In this document: positions 18,889 through 29,771 of the stretch, one piece after another
Numbering within the stretch: the first letter of the stretch is position 1
How the letters are laid out: every line of letters begins with the position of its first letter
Origin: Nocardioides sp. R-C-SC26
GTDB taxonomy: Bacteria > Actinomycetota > Actinomycetes > Propionibacteriales > Nocardioidaceae
DNA length: 64,000 nt
Direction of reading: 5' to 3'
NCBI RefSeq assembly: GCF_021246465.1
Contig: NZ_JAHRHK010000007.1
Span: 41,130 to 105,129 of the forward strand
Translations under genes and position numbers: made by a program
Notes under the pieces: generated by a model
Told to the model about the DNA's origin: nothing
Database searches by the model: none
Seen by the model: the letters and a program-made list of their open reading frames with translations, nothing else

Positions 18889-20052
18889 TCACGCGCGCGC
18901 GAGCCCACTGAGCCGCCACCCACCGCCCTCCTGCTGCACCAACCCGGCGCGAGCGAGTCTGGTGAGGCTCGCTTGGACCTCGAGCAGGCCCAATCCCGCG
19001 ACCCGCGCGACCGAGTCGACCGGCACTGCGCCGGCGACAGGAACGGCGTCGAGCACCTGTCGTTGACGGGGCGCCAGCCGATCACGGACGTCGCGACGTC
19101 GGGGTCGCTGCGGCGCCAGCTCCTCGCCGCTGCGCCCGAGCAGTTCGCGAACGTCGTGCGCACCGGTGACGAGCTGCATGACGCCAGCCTGGAGCTGCTC
19201 GTGGACGCCTGCCGACGTCTCACTGGTGACCGGGCCCGGAACGCCCATGACGACGCGATTGAGCCGCGTCGCCCAGTTCGCGGTGTTGAGCGCGCCGCTG
19301 CGCGACGCGGCTTCGACCACGACCGTGCCCGCGGTGAGCGCCGCGATCAGGCGATTGCGAGCCAGGAAGCGGACGCGCTGCGGCGCACAGCCCGGAGCCG
19401 CCTCGGACACGAGCGCTCCCACCTCGGCGATGCGTCGCAGGAGGTCGGCGTTGGACTGCGGGTAGTACCGATCGACGCCGCACGCCAGGACGCCGACCGT
19501 GAGACCGCCGACCGCGAGGGCCGCGCGGTGGGCGGCGATGTCGACGCCGAACGCGCCTCCCGACACGACGGCCATCCGATGGGTGGCGCACTCCCCCGCG
19601 ATCTCCCCCGCGATCGCACCCCCGTAGCTGGTGGCAGCACGCGAGCCGACGACCGCCACGGCCGACGTCACCTCGCTCAGGCGCGCTGGTCCACGGACCC
19701 ACAGTCCCACCGGCACACCGCCTCGTTCGTGCAGTGCTCCGGCTCCCGACAGGTCGTCGAGCCCGGTCGGCCACTCGACGTCTCCGGGGATGATGAACCG
19801 GATGCCCTGCCGGTGCGCGATCTCGAGCTCGCGCGCCGGATCGAGGCTGACCAGCCGCGTCGCGACATCGTCGGCGAGGCCCTGGTCGTCTCGACGATCG
19901 CCCTGCGCTGCCGGACCAGGGCCGGCGACGAGCAGGTCGTGGACCCGCGTCGCTCCCAACTGCTCGACGAGGGACGTCAACCGGACATCGCCTGGTTCAG
20001 CGAGCCTGCTCAAGGCGGCACGCGTCAGGCGCTCGACGTCGGTCGCGATCAT
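18889..20052 (-). CDS. dprA: DNA-processing protein DprA
   Basis: A 387-aa DprA/Smf, the RecA-loader for incoming single-stranded DNA in transformation. The Rossmann core is clear: VAVVGSRAATSYGG, VVSGGAFGVDIAAHRAAL, GVLACGVDRYYPQSNADLL, RFLARNRLIAAL and VVEAASRSGALNTANWA. A C-terminal winged-helix (DprA-WH-like, about residues 320-385) follows. It starts four bases inside comM (ATGA overlap), so translation is coupled in a yraN-comM-dprA operon. Confidence 0.93.
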   Translation of the reverse strand: MIATDVERLTRAALSRLAEPGDVRLTSLVEQLGATRVHDLLVAGPGPAAQGDRRDDQGLADDVATRLVSLDPARELEIAHRQGIRFIIPGDVEWPTGLDDLSGAGALHERGGVPVGLWVRGPARLSEVTSAVAVVGSRAATSYGGAIAGEIAGECATHRMAVVSGGAFGVDIAAHRAALAVGGLTVGVLACGVDRYYPQSNADLLRRIAEVGALVSEAAPGCAPQRVRFLARNRLIAALTAGTVVVEAASRSGALNTANWATRLNRVVMGVPGPVTSETSAGVHEQLQAGVMQLVTGAHDVRELLGRSGEELAPQRPRRRDVRDRLAPRQRQVLDAVPVAGAVPVDSVARVAGLGLLEVQASLTRLARAGLVQQEGGGWRLSGLARA

Positions 20053-21671
20053 GCCGACGCCTCGTGAGCCACAGCGTCATCGCCCGAACCGAGCTGGCGG
20101 AGTGGAAGCGGATCGCCGGTGCGCAGGCGAAGGGCGAGGTCGACCTCGTCGACGCCCGGCACGACGTCGGAACCCTCGCGGACAGCGCGGAGGTCGGCGA
20201 GGGTCCAGGCCAGTCGATGCACCCGGACGGCGCCTCGACCGCTCAGTGCGCCCGAGTACTGGGCGGTGTCGAGCACTCTCGCTGCGTCGTCGGGCAACGG
20301 CCACCGCTCGCGCAGTGCCGGCGCCGCGACGTGGGCGTTGAGACGCCAGCCGCAGTCGCGATACCGCGCGGTCTGGCGCTCTCGAGCCGCGTGGACACGC
20401 GCACGCACCTGGGCCGAGGTCTCGCTCCGATCGACCTCACGTTCGTGTGGTCGCAGCGGGAGGAGTGCCCGGGTGATGTCGATGCGGTCGACGAGCGGGC
20501 CGGCCAGCTTCGCCCGATAGGCACGCACCTGCTGCACGCGACAGCTGCACTGACTGCGCCCGCCACGGACGCCGTAGTTGCCGCACGGGCACGGGTTCGA
20601 GGCGAGCACGAGCAGCGTTCGGGCGGGAAGGGTGACCGACTCGTCCCGGCGCGCGATCGTGACGTCGCCGCTCTCCAGCGGCTGACGCAGGGCCTCGATG
20701 ATGTCGTGCCGGAAGAGTGCGAACTCGTCGAGGAAGAGGACTCCCGCGTGGCAGCGGCTGACCTCTCCCGGGCGAACCTGACCCGAGCCGCCACCGATGA
20801 TGCTGGTCTTGCTGGCGTCGTGGTGCGGAGCCGCGTACGGCGGGCGACGGATGAGACCTTCACCGGGATCGAGGTCGCCGGCCAACGAGCAGAGCGCGGT
20901 GATCTCCAGCGACTCCTCGGGCGTGAGTTCGGGGAGCAGGGTGGGGATGCGCTCGGCCAGGCTGGTCTTGCCGGCCCCCTTCGGCCCGGTGAGGAGGAGG
21001 TGATGTCCGCCGGCAGCTGCCACCTCGACGGCGAACTTCGCGTCCGGCATGCCGTGCAGGTCCGCGAGATCGACCTCGCCCAGTCGGGCGTCACCGCGCC
21101 ACCCCAGGAACCGCCCACCCGACACCGGCGCGACCGCGGCGGCAACAGGGACCTCGTCGCCGTTCAGCTCCGCGACGACCTGACCCAGCGATCTCATGCC
21201 GAAGACCGCCATCCCCGGCACCATGGCCGCCTCGGCGGCCTGCGGCTCCGGGACGAAGACATGCCGGACGCCCCGGTCGGCGGCGGAGAGCACCATCGGC
21301 AACACCCCCGGGACGCATCGCAAACCGCCCTCGAGCGTGAGCTCGCCGATGAACGCCGTCGCCGCCAGCGCCTCGGGTGCGATCTGCCCGTCGGCGGCGA
21401 GGATCGCCACCGCGATCGACAGGTCGAAGTGGGGACCGCGCTTGGTCAGGTCGGCCGGCGAGAGCAGCACGGTGACCCGTTTGGTGGCCGGCCAGCCGAA
21501 GTGGCTGTTGATCACCGCCGACTTGCAGCGGTCGAACGCCTCCCGCAGCGACTGGTCGGGCCGCCCGACCATGGTGAATCCCGGCGCACCTGCCGCGACG
21601 TCGGCCTGGACGTCGATCACGTGCCCCAGCGCACCGTACAGGCTGATCGTCGTCGCCGTCGCGATCCCCAT
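20049..21671 (-). CDS. comM: ComM/YifB Mg-chelatase-like AAA+ ATPase
   Basis: A 540-aa protein with an N-terminal ribosomal-S5/Lon-like domain (PGFTMVGRPDQSLREAFDR) and a C-terminal AAA+ domain. The latter has Walker A GPKGAGKTSLAER, Walker B FLDEFALF and the SNPCPCGNYG cysteine motif (CPCGNYG plus later Cys residues) typical of YifB/ComM. ComM is a branch-migration helicase used in natural transformation. The ATG at 21671 lies one base after the yraN stop; a GTG 15 nt upstream (21686) is the alternative. Confidence 0.92.
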   Translation of the reverse strand: MGIATATTISLYGALGHVIDVQADVAAGAPGFTMVGRPDQSLREAFDRCKSAVINSHFGWPATKRVTVLLSPADLTKRGPHFDLSIAVAILAADGQIAPEALAATAFIGELTLEGGLRCVPGVLPMVLSAADRGVRHVFVPEPQAAEAAMVPGMAVFGMRSLGQVVAELNGDEVPVAAAVAPVSGGRFLGWRGDARLGEVDLADLHGMPDAKFAVEVAAAGGHHLLLTGPKGAGKTSLAERIPTLLPELTPEESLEITALCSLAGDLDPGEGLIRRPPYAAPHHDASKTSIIGGGSGQVRPGEVSRCHAGVLFLDEFALFRHDIIEALRQPLESGDVTIARRDESVTLPARTLLVLASNPCPCGNYGVRGGRSQCSCRVQQVRAYRAKLAGPLVDRIDITRALLPLRPHEREVDRSETSAQVRARVHAARERQTARYRDCGWRLNAHVAAPALRERWPLPDDAARVLDTAQYSGALSGRGAVRVHRLAWTLADLRAVREGSDVVPGVDEVDLALRLRTGDPLPLRQLGSGDDAVAHEASA

Positions 21672-21672
21672 C

Positions 21673-22095
21673 TCAGCCGATCCCACGGACGTGGTCGACG
21701 ACCGCCGGCCCCTTGACCGGACGCAGGATCGCGACCAGGTCGATGCGGATCTCCGGCGGAGACACCGATCGCGATTGAGTCCACCGCTCGGCCAGTCGTC
21801 GAAGCCGCTCCAGCTTCTCCGCGGTGATCGCCTCGTGCGGGGCGCCGCAGATCGTGCTGGTGCGCGTCTTCACCTCGCACACGACCAGCACGTCTCCCTC
21901 GCGCAGCACAAGGTCGATCTCGCCCTCGTCGCAGCGCCAGTTGCGCTCCAACACCGCCATGCCCTGCATCTCGAGCTCGCGCGCTGCGAGTCGTTCGCCG
22001 TAGGCGCCGAGGGCCTGCCTCGCCTCCGCCGTCGACTCGATGAGCACCGGTCGCTCCGGTCGCGCTGCTGTCTGCTCGTTGGTCTCTGTCGTCAT
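21673..22095 (-). CDS. yraN: YraN / UPF0102 family nuclease-like protein
   Basis: A 140-aa protein of the restriction-endonuclease-like fold. Conserved motif order: [35 protein letters not shown] (with the Glu/Asp of the metal site), [10 protein letters not shown] (the ExK motif) and the C-terminal IRIDLVAI. A role in DNA metabolism is suggested by the constant association with comM and dprA but is unproven. The N-terminal ~25 residues are an unconserved-looking polar extension. Its Shine-Dalgarno is inside a hairpin. Confidence 0.9.
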
Positions 22096-22231: not shown

Positions 22232-23872
22232 CTAGCCGCGCAGGATGGGGCCGGAGCACTCCGGGCTCGCCACGCCGTAGACGTCCGCGCCCGCGACGTT
22301 GAGGCCGAGCAGGCCCGTGAGAGGACCGAGCAGAAGGCGGTCGACACCCTGCACGAGCGGATTGACGATCGTGTTCAGTACCGGGCCGACGATGCTCCCG
22401 ATCGGTACCGGGAGCGCGACGGGAACCCCGAGCAACGTCGCCTTGACCACCGGCGTCGACGCCACGGCGAGGCCGTTCAGTCCCACCTGGCCAGAACCGG
22501 ACGGCACGGGGCGCGAGGTGATCGCTCCCGGGGTGTTCGACGTGTAGGACAAGGGCGGCACCCGCACCTGTGCCGTGCTCGACAACCTCGACTCCGTCGT
22601 CGTCGCCGACACCGGGATCACGATCTCGACCTTGACCAGGCCCAGGTTGCCCACCAGGCGAACGTTCAGCCCGAGGGCGACCTCGGTCAGCGCGTTCTGC
22701 ACACGCACGTCGACGCCCTCGGCCGCCCCGTCCACCGCGCAGTGGATGCCGGTCAGCGTGCCGCGGCCGGACGCGAGATCTGCGGACAGACTCAGCGAGA
22801 CGCTTGCCGAGAGGCCGAGGATCGACGGCACGTTCACGACATCGCCCCCGAGCGTGAGCGAGGTCTGCGAGGTCCTCCGCTGGGTGCTGTTCACCCGGCC
22901 GCAGGCACGTTTCGGGGCCTCGACCAGCTTGAGACCGCCGCGGATCGCCGTCAGCCCGAGGCTGAGCCCGAGATCGTTGACCCCGATCAGGTTCTCGCCG
23001 TTGGCGATGAACGCGCTCGTCGCGAGAAGATCGAGGACGTTGACGCTGGCGTCGAGTGCCGAGGCACCGCCCGGGGCGAGGCCCACCAGTTCACCGACCG
23101 TCACGTTGGGAAGAGGACCCGCGCCCAGCGGGATGTTCCGCAGCAGTGTCACGTCGGCGGTGTCGCCGCCCTGGTTCTGCAGCACGGTGCCGGACGCCAC
23201 CATGAGCTCGCCGACCGAGACGGCCGAGATGTCGGCCAACTCGTCGACGCTGCCCGCGCCCAACTCAGCCGCCAGACCGGCCAGCGAGATGCTCGCGTCG
23301 GCGAGTCCGGCATAGCTGATGACACCGAGCCCGAGCGCATCGCCGATCAGGCCGTTGAGCAACGCCGAGTTCCCCGAGTTCACCGCGAGTGCGTACGAGC
23401 CGATCTGGAAACAGGCGAGCTCGTCCTGCGTCGCGACAGCCGACCTGGTCGCGCCTCCTGAGGACGCGAGACCGAACGCGAAATCGACGGAGGTGTGGGC
23501 GGCGACGCGGACAGCCGTCGGAATGGCCGTACCGCTCAGAGCGACGAACTTGCCCGCCCCGTCGAGCTCACCCCACTCGATGTCGGAGGCAGTGATGGAC
23601 GCCGGGTCGCCGATGGTGCCCGCGTTGCGTGCGATCGACTCCCGCGCCAGGGAGACCTCGACGGCCGACAGCTGAGTGACGGTCCGGGCGCCGAGCTCGC
23701 GCGAGAGGTCGAGGGCGACGATGTCGGCGAGCGCCTGCATGTCGCGCCGGGCGACGCGCTGCATGCCGATGTCGACCGTGATCGCGGCGATGGCGACCAG
23801 ACCGAACGCGAGCGCCGCCGCGATGATCGCGATGGCACCACGATCGTTGCGGCGTCGACCTCGGAGGAACAT
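22232..23872 (-). CDS. TadG-like protein, third cassette
   Basis: A 546-aa Tad-domain protein. After a basic N-terminus (MFLRGRRRNDRGAIA) there is one membrane helix, then VDIGMQRVARRDMQALAD, the same juxtamembrane segment seen in the other two TadG-like proteins. The long outer part is rich in Gly, Ala, Leu, Ser and Thr, with VTVGELVGLAPGG and a cysteine-containing carboxyl end CSGPILRG. Its start overlaps the TadE3 stop by one base (TGATG). Likely anchored in the membrane with the large domain outside; the function of stand-alone TadG-like proteins is not established. Confidence 0.75.
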   Translation of the reverse strand: MFLRGRRRNDRGAIAIIAAALAFGLVAIAAITVDIGMQRVARRDMQALADIVALDLSRELGARTVTQLSAVEVSLARESIARNAGTIGDPASITASDIEWGELDGAGKFVALSGTAIPTAVRVAAHTSVDFAFGLASSGGATRSAVATQDELACFQIGSYALAVNSGNSALLNGLIGDALGLGVISYAGLADASISLAGLAAELGAGSVDELADISAVSVGELMVASGTVLQNQGGDTADVTLLRNIPLGAGPLPNVTVGELVGLAPGGASALDASVNVLDLLATSAFIANGENLIGVNDLGLSLGLTAIRGGLKLVEAPKRACGRVNSTQRRTSQTSLTLGGDVVNVPSILGLSASVSLSLSADLASGRGTLTGIHCAVDGAAEGVDVRVQNALTEVALGLNVRLVGNLGLVKVEIVIPVSATTTESRLSSTAQVRVPPLSYTSNTPGAITSRPVPSGSGQVGLNGLAVASTPVVKATLLGVPVALPVPIGSIVGPVLNTIVNPLVQGVDRLLLGPLTGLLGLNVAGADVYGVASPECSGPILRG

Positions 23873-24360
23873 CAGCTGACCCTTGCCTGGGCCTCGTAGG
23901 TCACCGTGTCGGGCATCAGGATGCCGAGACCCGGGAACTGCGGCCCGGCCGGCGCGTTCTTGTAGTCGTAGACGAGGCGAACCGTCACGCAGCGGACCGT
24001 GGCATCGGCTGGAGTGGGGGTACAGGGGCCGGGCGCCGAGACGGCACAGGTGCCGGCCGCCTTGCCGTCCCTGGTGAGATTGCCGCTGGCGCACCTGATG
24101 CCCGCCGAGCTCAGGGCCTCGGTCACGGCGTCGTAGCCGGCCTGCTGCTTGCTCGACGTCGTCATGGTGACGGCAGCCGCACGAGCCCCCTCGGCAGCGG
24201 CCTGGCTGAGCGACTGACGCAGGGAGAGGAGCAGGCCGTAGCTGATGATGCCCATCACGATGAGGATGAAGGGGATCATCACCAGGGCGAACTCGACCGC
24301 GGCAGCGCCGCGGTCGGACTCACGCCGTCTGGACGTGCTGACGTAGAGACGAGCGCTCAC
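23872..24360 (-). CDS. TadE-like pseudopilin, third cassette
   Basis: A 162-aa protein. The N-terminus RRRESDRGAAAVEFALVMIP is a TadE prepilin-like signature: basic stretch, Gly, then a hydrophobic helix with Glu at about position +5. RQSLSQAAAEGARAAA follows and four Cys in the outer part may form disulfides. GTG start. It is followed directly by its TadG partner and lies 127 bp after the end of the second cassette. Confidence 0.78.
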   Translation of the reverse strand: MSARLYVSTSRRRESDRGAAAVEFALVMIPFILIVMGIISYGLLLSLRQSLSQAAAEGARAAAVTMTTSSKQQAGYDAVTEALSSAGIRCASGNLTRDGKAAGTCAVSAPGPCTPTPADATVRCVTVRLVYDYKNAPAGPQFPGLGILMPDTVTYEAQARVS

Positions 24361-24487
24361 CGTCTCCCCCTCCTGAGTTGCCCACCACCGTGGTGGTAGC
24401 CCACCCCGGCTTCACATTATGGACGCAGGAGAGCCTCGGGAGGCCTTCTCCAACCAAATTGGCCCGCCGCACAGGTTCCTGCCGGCC

Positions 24488-26317
24488 TCACCCGCGGAGC
24501 CCCGGCGTGCCGCACGAGACCGGCGGGGAGCTGTCGAGCATGACGTTGGACCCACCGACACGTGCTCCGATCAGACCGAGCAGGGGGTCGAAGACGGTGG
24601 TGGAGAGGCTTCGGGGGTCGGTCGGGCTCAGCAACTGGGTCAGCCCGGTGCCGAGGATGGCGTCGATCAGCTGGTTCTGCTGGGGGGTCGTGAGGTTGAT
24701 CCAGGCGCCGAGCGCGCCCCCGAGCAGCTCGACGTTCGCCGAGATGTTGGCGTAGCTCTTCGACCAGGAGAGGATCGAGACACTCCCGCTACTGGTCACG
24801 TAGGGCGTGTCGTAGGCCTGCGGCGGCACCGTGACGGTCATCGACGGGTTGCTCGAGGGGGTCAGTCTCGCCACGAGCGTGACGGCGGCATTCACCGAGA
24901 TGACGGCCTCGGCGATGTTGAGGCCGAGAGCACCCAGACCCAGGAGCCGGGCTCGCACCTCCGCCCGCAGCGGCGTACTGATCGTGACCGTCGCCAGGCC
25001 GTTGCGCACGTCGAGGCTGATGCCCTTCGCACCCGCCCCGCAGGCGAGGCCGGTCAGGATCGACTCGGTCCCCGCCGCGCTGAGGTCGAGCGAGACGTGG
25101 TTCTCGGCCGTGATCCGTGCCAGCTTGATGTTGGTCAACAGGTTGGTGATCGGCTGGAGCGGGAAGTCGACGATCGTCGGGTTGAGCGTGCCGTCGATGT
25201 GGATGTTGAGCTGCTCGGTGTCGGAACGCACCCCGATCGTCGACGTGCTCCCCGGAGCACCGCAGTACTGATGAGCTCCCTGCGACAGACGCACCGCGAG
25301 ATTGACGTTCGTCATGCTGGACAGCTGAGCCCCGAGGTAGATGTTGGCGACGTTGGTGCCGTTCAGTGCGGCGATCGAGCCCCCGACGATGTCCAGAACA
25401 TTCGCCGACGCCGCGGCCAAGGCGCCCGCGCCGGACTTGAGCCCGAGGATCTTGCCCATCTGCACCGTCGTCGTGGTCTTGGTGACGGCCTGGAGGGTGT
25501 TCAACAGGTTCACCGTCGTGGTGTTCGACGGCGAGGCCAGCGCCGCCAGGTGGACGTAGAGGTTCTTCGCCAGAACGGTCGCGGATGCGAGCTGCTCGAC
25601 CGTCCCCACGTTGAGACGCGTGGCGAGCTGCAGCAGGTCGACGTTCGCCGACGCCAGCGACATGTAGTCGAGGGCCGAGACCGTGCCGCCGTTGGTGAAG
25701 GCTCCGGACTGCTCAGCCATCTTGCGAAGGACGGGGTTGATCAGCTGTGACCGGTTGGTGTTGACCTGAGCAGCCCACGATCCCAGCTTGTAGCAGGCCG
25801 ACGAGGCCACGCCCGCGATCGCCGTCCTGCTGGCGCCTCCGTCGCCGGGGCGGAAGGAGAAGGCAACCGACCCCGAGGCGCGCACCCAGACCGCGTCCGG
25901 GATGTCGCTCGCAGCCGTGAGCGAGACCACCTCCCCGGTCGTCGGGTTGCGGACCGGCTTCCCGGTCGAGTCCAGGTCGACCAGGCGCACGTCGAGCGAT
26001 GGCGTGGCGTCCACCCCCGTGCTGTTGCGCGCCACGCTCCGGTCGCGCGCGGTCGCCAACGAGGGATGCGAGGAGTCGCCCGCGATGATCACGGCGGCAT
26101 TGCGACCGTCGACCAGCTGGGAGAGGTCCAGCGCCACCATGTCGGCGACCGCCTGCATGTCGCTTCGCACCGCGCGCTGCATTCCGATGTCCACCGCGAA
26201 GGCCGCGACGCTCATCAGCAGCGCGGACCCGAGGATGCCGACGAGGACGGCGATCGCCCCTCGCTCACTGCGATGCCGCGCGGGGAGTCTGCGGCACACG
26301 ACTTCGAGCCGGATCAC
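24488..26317 (-). CDS. TadG-like protein, second cassette
   Basis: A 609-aa Tad-domain protein homologous to its neighbours. The N-terminal SERGAIAVLVGILG helix is followed by AVDIGMQRAVRSDMQAVAD, then a long outer domain containing LNVGTVEQLASA, ILGLKSGAGALAA and ANVLDIVGG, and the C-terminus VSCGTPGLRG. The GTG start (26317) shares four bases with the TadE2 stop (GTGA), so the pair is translationally coupled. Confidence 0.75.
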   Translation of the reverse strand: MIRLEVVCRRLPARHRSERGAIAVLVGILGSALLMSVAAFAVDIGMQRAVRSDMQAVADMVALDLSQLVDGRNAAVIIAGDSSHPSLATARDRSVARNSTGVDATPSLDVRLVDLDSTGKPVRNPTTGEVVSLTAASDIPDAVWVRASGSVAFSFRPGDGGASRTAIAGVASSACYKLGSWAAQVNTNRSQLINPVLRKMAEQSGAFTNGGTVSALDYMSLASANVDLLQLATRLNVGTVEQLASATVLAKNLYVHLAALASPSNTTTVNLLNTLQAVTKTTTTVQMGKILGLKSGAGALAAASANVLDIVGGSIAALNGTNVANIYLGAQLSSMTNVNLAVRLSQGAHQYCGAPGSTSTIGVRSDTEQLNIHIDGTLNPTIVDFPLQPITNLLTNIKLARITAENHVSLDLSAAGTESILTGLACGAGAKGISLDVRNGLATVTISTPLRAEVRARLLGLGALGLNIAEAVISVNAAVTLVARLTPSSNPSMTVTVPPQAYDTPYVTSSGSVSILSWSKSYANISANVELLGGALGAWINLTTPQQNQLIDAILGTGLTQLLSPTDPRSLSTTVFDPLLGLIGARVGGSNVMLDSSPPVSCGTPGLRG

Positions 26318-26775
26318 TGCGGCACCTTCCCCGATGCGGTGTAGCTCAACGTGTCGGGCAGGATCGCCCCGATCCCCGGCACCGGCAACAGCGGGTGCGC
26401 GCCGTAGTCGTAGGTGACGGTGACGAAGACGCACTGACCGAGGTCGCCGTCACCGCAGGCCCGCGTGGTGGTCGAGCAGGTGCCGACGGTCGCTCCGGCC
26501 CGTCGCAGTGACCCCTGGGAGCAGGTCACGTCGTAGCTCTTCAGCGCCGCGGACACGCTGTCGTAGGCCGCGGTCGTCGAACTGGCCGACGTGACATAGA
26601 CGCGAGCGGCCTGGGCGGCCGACACGCTGACGGCCTGGCGGAAGGAGAGCATGTAGCCGTACGCGAGGATCCCGAAGAGCAGCCAGGCGAGCAGGGGCGC
26701 GACGAGGGCGAGCTCCAGTGCGGCCGCACCGTTGTCCCGACGTCGACCGGCACCGCGATCCTCGCGCCTACGCAT
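26314..26775 (-). CDS. TadE-like pseudopilin, second cassette
   Basis: A 153-aa protein with the TadE pattern RRRDNGAAALELALVAPLLA followed by a membrane helix and FRQAVSVSAAQAARVYV. The outer part has several Cys and ends in PDTLSYTASGKVPQ, matching the C-terminal PDTVTYEAQA of TadE3. ATG start preceded by GGAGG. It lies 132 bp after the end of cassette 1. Confidence 0.78.
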   Translation of the reverse strand: MRRREDRGAGRRRDNGAAALELALVAPLLAWLLFGILAYGYMLSFRQAVSVSAAQAARVYVTSASSTTAAYDSVSAALKSYDVTCSQGSLRRAGATVGTCSTTTRACGDGDLGQCVFVTVTYDYGAHPLLPVPGIGAILPDTLSYTASGKVPQ

Positions 26776-26907
26776 AGCTCGCCTCCTGCGAACACGAACG
26801 GGGACCCCGAAATCCCTGCCCGTTCTGATCGACCGGCGGCGCGACCACCTGAGAGATGTCCAGCACTTTGTCGCAGGTGCGGTGGAGACACCCGCGCGAT
26901 CGATCGG

Positions 26908-28773
26908 TCAGCCAGCGAGGGCGGGAGTGCCGCAGGACGGCGTCGGCAACGCCGTGAAGGTCGACCCGGCGATGGTGAGCCCGAGCTGGGCGCGCACCGC
27001 GTTCGTCACCGCGGTCAGCAGCGGGTTCACGATCGTGGTGGTCAGCGGGCCCAGCAGGTTGGTCTGCACCGCGTTCACCACCGAGTTCAGTGACGACAGC
27101 ATCTGGTTGACGAGCGGACGCCCGTTGGAGAACTGCCCGTCGGTCTGCATCGTGGTGTTGATCTGGACGTTGCCGACGGAGAGATCGCCGTTCGGCCCCT
27201 GCTTGACCTTGCCGTAGTCGCCGGGGACGAGCAGCGTGGCGGCGGTCGTCTTCTCGGTGCTCGGCACGGTGGTCAGGGCGATGGTCAGGGTCGACGTCAC
27301 TGTCTCGTGCTGGCGCCCGATCCCCAGGAATCCGCCGTAGTTCCGCGTCTCACGGATGATCAGCGGGATCCGCACCGTGGCCGGCGCGAGCGAGGCTCCC
27401 TGAGTGACCGACATGCTCGTCGGCGTGCGTCCGTTGCAGCTCAGCGAGTTGACCGTGCCCGACGCCGAGCCGAGCGAGATCGTCGCAGACACCTTGCCGA
27501 GTGAGACCTGGGGCAGGTCGTAGGTGTCGGTGCCGAGCAGCGTGCCGAGCAACCCGAGTACGCCGCTCAACAGGCCGTTGAGCGCGTTCACCAGGTTCGT
27601 CAGACCGCTGGTGAGTGTTCCGGGCGCGTTGATGTCGGCCGTGGCCGTGACCGCGATCTGCTCCATGGTCCGCTTGCCGTCGCCCAGGCAGACCCGGGTC
27701 GGTTTGCTGCCCACCGTGACGCCGAGCGAGAGCCCGGTGAGGTTCTGGCCGGTGGCCGCGATCGTGATCGGTCGCGTGCCGTTCGCCAACTGCACGGCCG
27801 CGGTCGCCAGGTCGAGCGCGTTGACCGTCGTGCCGAGCGCCGCCTGGCCCCCCTGGGAGATGCCGAGCAGCGTGCCGACGGTGAACCTGTCGAGGAGCGG
27901 ACCGACATGGGCTCCGATCTGCGACGTCAGCACGTTGGCCTGCGCGGCACCCGTCGTGCCGCTCCGCGTCAACGCCTCGACCTGTGCGGCGATGACCTGA
28001 GCTGCGGTGACCTGGGTGGTCAGGAGCTGGTCGACGGTACCGACGTTGAGCTGGGTCTTGAGGATGTTGAGGAAGTTCAGCACGTCGAGATCGGCGCTGA
28101 GGATCCCGGAGCTGCTCAACGCGGTGAGATCGATGTTGGTGCCGAGGATCCTCGTGATCGGCCCCAGCACCGCACCCTCGCCGCTGGCGAGCCGGGCGGC
28201 GTAGGAGTCCATCATCATGCAGGCCGTCTTGTAGGCGCGCGCGATCGCCGAGCGGCACACCGAGCCGCCGCCGCTGACGAGGCTGAAGTCGACGCGATTG
28301 GAGATCGTGACGAGCACAGCGGTCGGCGTGGCGCCGACCGGAGCCGCCGTGAAGTAGGCGTTGTAGGGCGATGCGCCACAGCCGAGCGACTGGTCGCCGA
28401 CGAACGTGTTCGAGAGGTTGCCGGTGTGCACCACGACGGTCGGTGCGTCCGAGCCGACCATGCCACGTGAGGCGTTCACGGTCGCCTGGGCGATCGCGGT
28501 GAGCGCCGAGACCGACGTCGTGCCCGTGCCGAGGGCGCGCGCGGCGTCCTGCGCGGCGGCGTCGGCGAGGGTCTGCGCGTCACCTCGAGCCATCCGCTGC
28601 ATGCCGATGTCCACCGCGTAGCTCGCCACCGGCAGCACCACGAAGCACGTCACCAGGGCCATGAAGACGGCGACGGCGCCGCGCTCGGTGCGACGTCGGC
28701 GCGACAGCGCGAGACGACGTGCGAGCGGAACACGATCACCGGAGCGGGACGCGCCATTCATCAGGATCCTCAT
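26908..28773 (-). CDS. TadG-like protein, first cassette
   Basis: The largest of the three, 621 aa. RRRRTERGAVAVFMALVTC begins the membrane helix and is followed by YAVDIGMQRMARGDAQTLAD. Further on are LNVGTVDQLLTTQ, FTVGTLLGISQGG and NALDLATA, equivalent to segments in TadG2 and TadG3. The carboxyl end is PSCGTPALAG. The start overlaps the TadE1 stop (ATGA); a second ATG four codons later is possible. Confidence 0.75.
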   Translation of the reverse strand: MRILMNGASRSGDRVPLARRLALSRRRRTERGAVAVFMALVTCFVVLPVASYAVDIGMQRMARGDAQTLADAAAQDAARALGTGTTSVSALTAIAQATVNASRGMVGSDAPTVVVHTGNLSNTFVGDQSLGCGASPYNAYFTAAPVGATPTAVLVTISNRVDFSLVSGGGSVCRSAIARAYKTACMMMDSYAARLASGEGAVLGPITRILGTNIDLTALSSSGILSADLDVLNFLNILKTQLNVGTVDQLLTTQVTAAQVIAAQVEALTRSGTTGAAQANVLTSQIGAHVGPLLDRFTVGTLLGISQGGQAALGTTVNALDLATAAVQLANGTRPITIAATGQNLTGLSLGVTVGSKPTRVCLGDGKRTMEQIAVTATADINAPGTLTSGLTNLVNALNGLLSGVLGLLGTLLGTDTYDLPQVSLGKVSATISLGSASGTVNSLSCNGRTPTSMSVTQGASLAPATVRIPLIIRETRNYGGFLGIGRQHETVTSTLTIALTTVPSTEKTTAATLLVPGDYGKVKQGPNGDLSVGNVQINTTMQTDGQFSNGRPLVNQMLSSLNSVVNAVQTNLLGPLTTTIVNPLLTAVTNAVRAQLGLTIAGSTFTALPTPSCGTPALAG

Positions 28774-29261
28774 GTGAGTTGCACCACCGAGGTGAAGGTC
28801 AGGTCTTGGGGAAGCACGAAGCCGTAGCCCGGGAGCGAAGGCAGCAACGAGTGGGCCCGGTAGGGATAGGTGACCGTCACCGAGATGCAGGTGTGGCCCG
28901 TCGCGCAACCGGTGACCGTCGGGGTCGCGCCGACCCGGATCGTGCAGGTGAGGTACTTGGTCCCACAGGTCATGCCGTAGGTGTTGACGGCGTTCGCGAC
29001 AGCTGTCGCCGCTGCCGCCTGGGCCGGGCACGTGGTCGCTGTGTACGGCCCCGTGGCGGCACACGTTCCGTCCGTGGGGTTGTAGGCCCCGACAGCGCCG
29101 CGAGCTCCCTCTGCCGCCGACTGCGAGAGGGCCTGGCGGAAGCTGAACATGTAGCCGTAGCCGATCGCGCCGAAGACCAGGTACAGCATCGGCACCATCA
29201 CCAGTGCGAACTCGACCGCGGCCGCACCGCGGCTGGTCCGTCGTCGACCTGCGCTCCCCAT
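28770..29261 (-). CDS. TadE-like pseudopilin, first cassette
   Basis: A 163-aa protein. RRRTSRGAAAVEFALVMVPM is the TadE signature, followed by YMFSFRQALSQSAAEGARGA. The outer part holds six Cys residues, two of them in GCATGHTC. The ATG at 29261 is chosen because GGGGGAGG stands 4 nt upstream; another ATG 15 nt earlier is possible. It opens the three-cassette block and is preceded by a 201-bp gap that should hold the promoter; I see no convincing -35/-10 pair there. Confidence 0.78.
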   Translation of the reverse strand: MGSAGRRRTSRGAAAVEFALVMVPMLYLVFGAIGYGYMFSFRQALSQSAAEGARGAVGAYNPTDGTCAATGPYTATTCPAQAAAATAVANAVNTYGMTCGTKYLTCTIRVGATPTVTGCATGHTCISVTVTYPYRAHSLLPSLPGYGFVLPQDLTFTSVVQLT

Positions 29262-29462: not shown

Positions 29463-29771
29463 TCAGGGCTTCGGGGGCTCGAAGGCCGACTCGGCGAGCT
29501 CCTCGACGTTGACGTCCTTGAACGTCAGCACCTTCACGGTCTTGGCGAACCGCGCCGGTCGGTACATGTCCCACACCCAGGCATCGCTCATCGAGACCTC
29601 GAAGAAGACGTCGCCGTCCTCGCCCCGCGACTTCACGTCGACCTGGTTGCACAGGTAGAAGCGTCGATCGGTCTCGACCACGTACTTGAAGATGCCCACG
29701 ACGTCGCGGTACTCGCGATAGAGGGTGAGCTCCTGCTCGGCCTCGTACTTCTCGAGCTCCTCGGCACTCAT
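29463..29771 (-). CDS. DUF2469 family protein
   Basis: A 102-aa protein with the characteristic start MSAEELEKYEAEQELTLYRE and middle VVETDRRFYLCNQVDV, ending in aromatic/acidic residues. The family is widespread in actinobacteria directly downstream of rnhB, as here (ATGA overlap with the rnhB stop), and its function is unknown. Hydrophilic and probably cytoplasmic. Confidence 0.9.
   Translation of the reverse strand: MSAEELEKYEAEQELTLYREYRDVVGIFKYVVETDRRFYLCNQVDVKSRGEDGDVFFEVSMSDAWVWDMYRPARFAKTVKVLTFKDVNVEELAESAFEPPKP

Follow-up and report, generated by a model that had tools for sequence, protein, structure and literature searches.

Three pairs of genes for TadE-like and TadG-like pilus proteins stand in tandem in the DNA that we analyzed, and no Tad pilus machine is encoded beside them. 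Which machine, if any, do these proteins serve? The window is a 64-kb stretch, at positions 41130-105129 of contig C75 (211 kb), from a genome of 3.7 Mb in 106 contigs. Based on the gene content of this genome and of its relatives, the three gene pairs (or cassettes) are probably alternative minor-pilin sets, forming the tip, for the Tad/Flp pilus machine that is encoded on another contig, C1.

Three cassettes of minor-pilin genes

The cassettes are six open reading frames on the minus strand at 22232-29261, and the consecutive pairs, sizes, overlaps and gaps given in the initial annotation were all found. The first cassette comprises E1 (28770..29261; 163 amino acids), a TadE-like minor prepilin, and G1 (26908..28773; 621 amino acids), a large TadG-like minor pilin that was assigned from its open reading frame and start, its Pfam match, and its place in the family tree. 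The second cassette comprises E2 (26314..26775; 153 amino acids) and G2 (24488..26317; 609 amino acids, with a GTG start), which is homologous to G1, to G3, and to a fourth paralogue, G4. The third cassette comprises E3 (23872..24360; 162 amino acids, with a GTG start) and G3 (22232..23872; 546 amino acids), for which we also have an AlphaFold2 model. E and G overlap by 4 bases in the first and second pairs and by 1 base in the third; the pairs are separated by 132 bp (pairs 1 and 2) and 127 bp (pairs 2 and 3).

All three TadE-like proteins score above the curated cut-off of Pfam's TadE family (PF07811, 22.9 bits): 43.1 bits for E1, 32.7 bits for E2, and 56 bits for E3. For Pfam's Tad domain (PF13400, cut-off 22.3 bits), G1 is above the cut-off (25.2 bits), while G3 (22.2-22.6 bits) and G2 (16.9 bits, but 23.1 bits in a whole-genome search) are around it. 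Across the TadG family, 63 of 70 members match PF13400 and 9 of 70 match Tad_C (PF09977) at E <= 0.01. The TadGs of the window have the N-terminal Tad domain with its VDxG and R..LQ..AD motif. As originally noted, the motif VDIGMQR..R.D.Q occurs in G1, G2 and G3; the NVGTV(D/E)QL segment, which was also thought to be shared, is present in G1 and G2, but G3 reads GAGSVDEL instead. A search of the cassette proteins against NCBIfam profiles gave nothing over the cut-off. In all-against-all comparisons of the six proteins, E1-E3 were homologous to each other at E values of 4e-14 to 8e-24 and G1-G3 at 2e-21 to 4e-39, so that homology within each type (TadE to TadE and TadG to TadG) is far above chance.

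The TadE-like proteins retain intact prepilin-peptidase sites (G/xxxxE at the start of the hydrophobic helix): SRG/AAAVEF in E1, DNG/AAALEL in E2, and DRG/AAAVEF in E3. By a simple pattern search, the glutamate at +5 is present in 39 of 55 TadE family members and is rare in TadG. The TadGs of the window have the start of a prepilin site, but position +5 is a hydrophobic residue.

The regions upstream of the three cassettes have no 7-mer common to all, no sigma-70-like promoters were found in them, and terminator-like sites are no commoner there than in shuffled sequences; these sequences thus show neither co-regulation of the cassettes nor separate promoters for them. The G+C content is 67-71% over the cassettes versus 69-73% in the flanks, and the base composition shows no sign of recently acquired foreign DNA.

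Tad machines elsewhere in the genome

The absence of a Tad machine, which was first noted for the window, extends to the entire 211 kb of C75: TadA, TadB/C and prepilin peptidase are all missing from it. A complete tad locus, with clustered genes for TadA, TadB/C, Flp and TadV, is found neither at the cassettes (C75 has no TadA, TadB/C or TadV) nor on the rest of the contig, just outside the window. For the genome as a whole, however, the claim of cassettes "without a Tad machine" does not hold. Matches to TadA, TadB/C or prepilin peptidase lie on contigs C1, C26, C66 and C40, and there are three Tad clusters.

The C1 cluster (40-52 kb of that contig) encodes RcpC, TadZ, TadA, TadB with a von Willebrand A (vWA) domain, TadC, a sensor histidine kinase, a response regulator, and Flp pilin(s) (a Flp_Fap match), and it lacks both TadE and TadG. 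The genome has five TadE genes, of which three are in the window, one is in the C26 cluster, and one is in the C66 cluster. It also has seven matches to the Tad domain, and none of these is on C1. The C26 cluster has the order TadA-B-C-Flp(DUF4244)-TadE-TadG. In the C66 cluster, TadA-B-C comes first and is separated by a serine integrase and phage-like genes from TadE, a TadE-like gene, and TadG, in this order. Because C1 is the only Tad cluster without its own TadE and TadG, we name it as the machine that the cassettes would serve. The whole genome encodes a single prepilin peptidase, as does that of Micrococcus luteus (PMC4322843).

Two features of these clusters are of separate interest. 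On C1 (L027:6619-9234), the vWA domain precedes the TadB platform domain in frame, so the two are apparently one protein. On C66 (about 130.8-143 kb; L024:10838-12388 and L025:241-2055), the 3' end of tadC coincides with the start of the serine integrase, and the phage-like genes extend to the next TadE, so that an element of 12-13 kb splits this second Tad locus.

A conserved chromosomal dock

In related genomes, the cassettes occupy a fixed site, or dock, with the order rplS-lepB-rnhB-DUF2469-[E-G]n-yraN-comM-dprA. In the window, the upstream border is the DUF2469 gene (29463..29771, minus strand), which is kept beside the site in nearly all docks, and the downstream border is the YraN gene (21673..22095, minus strand), followed by comM (20049-21686) and dprA (18889-20052), all in conserved synteny. 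We found the arrangement of DUF2469, one or more E-G pairs, and YraN in nearly 50 named loci of the Nocardioides group. When cassette numbers were compared across relatives, there were 1 to 3 per dock, with some inverted and some partial. In a sample of 59 genomes, most occupied docks have one or two cassettes, and a set of three occurs only in the window; three are also present in N. marmorisolisilvae (L034) and in a Pimelobacter metagenome-assembled genome (MAG; L082). In another genome (G015, L149), DUF2469 and yraN are separated by about 11 kb of other DNA instead of cassettes.

Since dprA and comM adjoin the site, and since M. luteus uses Flp pili for transformation (PMC4322843), we considered whether the cassettes belong to a DNA-uptake (competence) pilus. 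But yraN and comM stay with DUF2469 where the dock is empty, which implies that this neighborhood is independent of the cassettes, and we consider a competence role to be improbable. ComEC is encoded by all 59 genomes, with or without the machine, and argues neither for nor against such a role.

The cassettes co-occur with the C1-type machine

We searched the same 59 genomes for TadA and for the TadG family. A C1-like TadA and a member of the cassette family were both present in 45 genomes and both absent from 10, with two mixed cases of each kind. In other words, the cassette family is found in 45 of 47 genomes with a C1-like TadA versus 2 of 12 without it (Fisher p 6e-8).

We then divided the C1-like machines by the identity of their TadZ to that of C1, into type a (54-74%) and type b (35-43%). 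Machine loci were read in the 47 genomes with C1-like TadA, which include the window's own genome, and docks were read in 57 genomes (the dock was not found in G030 or G068). One more genome, G004, was left unscored because its dock contig is truncated. Among the remaining 56 genomes, 30 of 33 with a type-a machine have an occupied dock, versus 0 of 23 others (Fisher p 8e-13, for a division into types that was made after the data were seen). The 23 comprise 13 genomes with only a type-b machine and 10 with neither type. One of these 10 (G069; L153, about 2064) keeps a 219-amino-acid remnant of TadG in its dock, with no TadE, which looks like decay following the loss of the machine.

The location of E-G pairs also differs between the two types of machine. 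No type-a locus has an E-G pair in cis. Among the 13 type-b-only genomes, all of whose docks are empty, 9 have E-G in cis, and in the other 4 no E-G pair lies closer than 9 kb to the machine. Two genomes, G013 and G020, have both types of machine, and in each of these E-G is in cis at the type-b locus, is absent from the type-a locus, and the dock is occupied (in G020, by E only).

The exceptions are G058, G028 and G023, whose docks are empty despite a type-a machine. E/G-like matches are present elsewhere in the genomes of G028 and G023, and none was found in G058. Also, several of the occupied docks (such as those of G006, G024 and G070) have only divergent, weak-scoring E/G genes.

Two observations bear on whether this association reflects shared ancestry or linkage. 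First, on a tree of ComM, seven independent contrasts in the presence of a type-a machine were matched by concordant changes of the dock in 5-6 cases and by discordant changes in none (median p 0.03 by sign test, from few independent events). For instance, G035 and G018 have near-identical ComM and yet differ both in the type-a machine and in the occupancy of the dock. Second, in relatives with both loci on one contig, a distance of 0.1 to 1.3 Mb separates the dock from the machine, so the association does not depend on close linkage.

These results bear on the two alternatives that were raised in the initial annotation. There is strong support for the first, minor-pilin sets that depend on a Tad system elsewhere, both from C1 being the sole cluster without TadE or TadG and from the co-occurrence. 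The other alternative, that the E-G pairs form a surface structure of their own from three TadE/TadG dimers, independent of Tad, is disfavored, as related genomes without the machine do not have the cassettes. It might draw on the lack of any Tad machine gene on the 211-kb contig and on the size of the TadGs, most of each being without a known counterpart. But all 10 assessable genomes with neither a type-a nor a type-b machine have an empty dock, apart from the remnant; cassettes and machine were lost together in independent lineages; the type-b Tad cluster includes related E-G pairs; and the TadEs retain their prepilin-peptidase sites. We regard a Tad-independent structure as very improbable.

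A further alternative is that the C26 or C66 machine uses the cassettes instead of C1, or that all three machines do. The Tad clusters of this genome have one prepilin peptidase in common, and in M. luteus, the products of two tad loci cooperate (PMC4322843). However, the C26 and C66 clusters each have their own TadE and TadG, and C66 is split by the phage-like element. Furthermore, C26-type TadA is also found in genomes with empty docks (for example G001, G011, G015, G059 and G072), and only the type-a machines track the dock. Service to C26 or C66 therefore seems unlikely, and the C1 machine is still our preferred partner for the cassettes.

The cassettes are deeply diverged

The initial annotation proposed that the block arose by duplication. 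This is correct in the sense of deep shared ancestry, but not in the sense of recent tandem copying. In a tree of 71 TadGs, the four members from this genome (G1-G4) fall in four places, and four changes are required by the starred branches. G1 clusters with the one cassette that N. marmoriginsengisoli has (59% identity), and G2 with copies from a Pimelobacter MAG and from N. alkalitolerans. The TadGs of the window are just 26-32% identical to one another, as compared to a family median of 35%, so they are no more similar than cassettes from different species are. The tree and these identities rule out a recent tandem duplication in this lineage. Instead, the array must consist of old paralogues or of cassettes that were gained at different times.

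G4 (on contig C38; L026:5496-7226), one of the genome's seven Tad-domain matches, is a lone fourth member of the TadG family. It has no adjacent TadE and lies beside a glycosyltransferase-like gene. Its closest relative in the window is G3 (37% identity).

Across 55 cassettes, the distances between Es are correlated with the distances between Gs (Mantel r 0.40, p 5e-4). This is as expected if the pairs travel together, although common species history also adds to r.

Do all three cassettes matter? One of them alone might supply the tip, with the others being functionless paralogues that are kept briefly as cassettes turn over. The variation in cassette number from 1 to 3, the fact that relatives contain inverted copies, partial copies and remnants, and the prevalence of docks with one or two cassettes are all compatible with this. 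But in the window, all six genes are intact, with overlapping starts and E-G pairing preserved, and the deep divergence of the cassettes implies that they have been retained for a long time. We consider a single functional tip to be unlikely and tentatively favor several usable sets.

TadG has a conserved membrane helix and a variable outer domain

The AlphaFold2 model of G3 (mean pLDDT 85.5, pTM 0.78) begins with a helix of 47 residues, which is followed by a sheet domain of the pilin type and a helical central part; distal to these is a long beta domain that carries a C-terminal helix, and the last strand, which is conserved (GADV...C..P.L.G), closes the chain. Pairwise identity among TadGs drops outward, from 60% in the membrane helix to 39%, 34%, and finally 26% in the outer domain. 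Such a gradient would be expected if the base is anchored and the other end is exposed and diversifies.

In comparisons to the PDB, neither sequence search, nor Foldseek with the whole model or the distal domain alone, nor VIA-align gave an outstanding match for the outer domain, and no Foldseek match was below E = 0.04. The TULIP proteins BPIFA1, SPLUNC1, LBP and CETP recur as matches (Z of 5.0-6.9, at roughly 4.4-5.8 Å over 124-147 residues), but beta-barrels match equally well. Pfam identified no vWA domain in the cassette TadGs.

A model for detached tips

The processing of TadE by prepilin peptidase, the start of a filament by TadE and TadG, and the addition of Flp pilins are taken over from Tad biology. 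In our model, each TadE would be a small prepilin, matured by the one prepilin peptidase that the genome encodes. The TadGs would each place their conserved membrane helix and pilin domain at the end of the pilus, with their fast-diverging outer domain displayed at the tip. As C1 provides Flp pilins, the ATPase and the platform but neither TadE nor TadG, an E-G pair from the dock would start the filament: the complex of TadE and TadG would initiate it and end up at the tip while TadA and TadB/C add the Flp pilins of C1 below. Several divergent pairs could then provide interchangeable tips on one pilus. What we observed are the gene content, the dock, the co-occurrence with the C1-type machine, the mutual exclusion with in-cis pairs, the joint divergence of E and G, and the graded variability of TadG; incorporation into the pilus, the position at the tip, the exchange of tips, and what the tips bind are inferences. 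The tips might serve in adhesion, in contact with prey or a partner, or in DNA uptake.

More tentatively, the interval between DUF2469 and yraN might be a permanent dock of Nocardioides, which stacks tip cassettes and exchanges them between lineages for a Tad machine that lacks a tip of its own, so that one Gram-positive pilus is repeatedly refitted. The outer domain might then be a new tip fold, perhaps one resembling the lipid-binding TULIP proteins. We view this extension as possible but doubtful.

Comparison to known Tad systems

The closest precedent is the Kil system of Myxococcus xanthus, in which four paralogous sets of KilL/M/N (similar to TadE/F/G) serve one Tad-type Kil pilus (PMC12075869). 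Interchangeable TadEFG-like tips on a single Tad pilus were thus published for Myxococcus in 2025, and the outer domain of KilN also has no clear relative among solved structures (PMC12075869). As with the Kil tips, we see several paralogous minor-pilin sets (three cassettes and the orphan G4) that are mostly unlinked to the machine, one fitting machine (C1, the only one here without its own E and G), and one large member whose variable distal domain has no clear structural relative. On the other hand, KilLMN is a heterotrimer of TadE-, TadF- and TadG-like proteins, while the sets in the window have two genes; our sets are in a Gram-positive host and lie together at one conserved site, and the C1 machine is not known to be predatory.

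M. luteus, like our strain, is an actinobacterium with dispersed Tad loci, a small Flp pilin, and a peptidase that is encoded apart (PMC4322843, PMC6916266). Its two unlinked loci, tad-1 and tad-2, are both needed for one Flp pilus (PMC4322843). However, each of those loci has its own TadE/F and TadG, while C1 has none and would use a separate cassette site. In Caulobacter, a tip role was proposed for the TadG orthologue CpaL (PMC12607857), and in the CpaJ/CpaK/CpaL group, as in our cassettes, a large TadG-type pilin is predicted to be at the tip along with small minor pilins (PMC12607857). CpaL contains a vWA domain, whereas the outer part of the window's TadGs is modeled as a long beta domain and the vWA domain instead precedes the TadB of C1.

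In the open-licence literature on Tad/Flp pili of Nocardioides, we found no description of such an arrangement. What sets it apart from the known systems is a machine without any E or G, the stacking of two-gene cassettes at a single conserved site of a Gram-positive genus, and a natural record of gains and losses that ties the cassettes to one type of machine.

The role of TadE and TadG is a standing question for the Tad field, especially in Gram-positive bacteria, and the data from M. luteus left undecided whether they are components of the tip or of the base (PMC4322843). Because the machine and the E-G pairs are at separate loci, are lost together, and the pairs are present in 1-3 copies, cassettes could be swapped or deleted with the machine untouched, which would be a direct test. 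The arrangement would also bring a Gram-positive genus under the "adaptable tip" idea, and one can predict from it which minor pilins go with which of a genome's several Tad machines.

Cassette relatives beyond Nocardioides

In family searches, relatives of the cassettes were almost all from Nocardioides, which suggests that the window's genome is of this group. Among 198 genomes of the class, members of the TadG family scoring above 350 bits were confined to the window's own family. An E-G pair of the cassette family is also present on a contig from an Acidimicrobiaceae MAG (L083:5250-7690), which reflects either lateral transfer or a misbinned contig.
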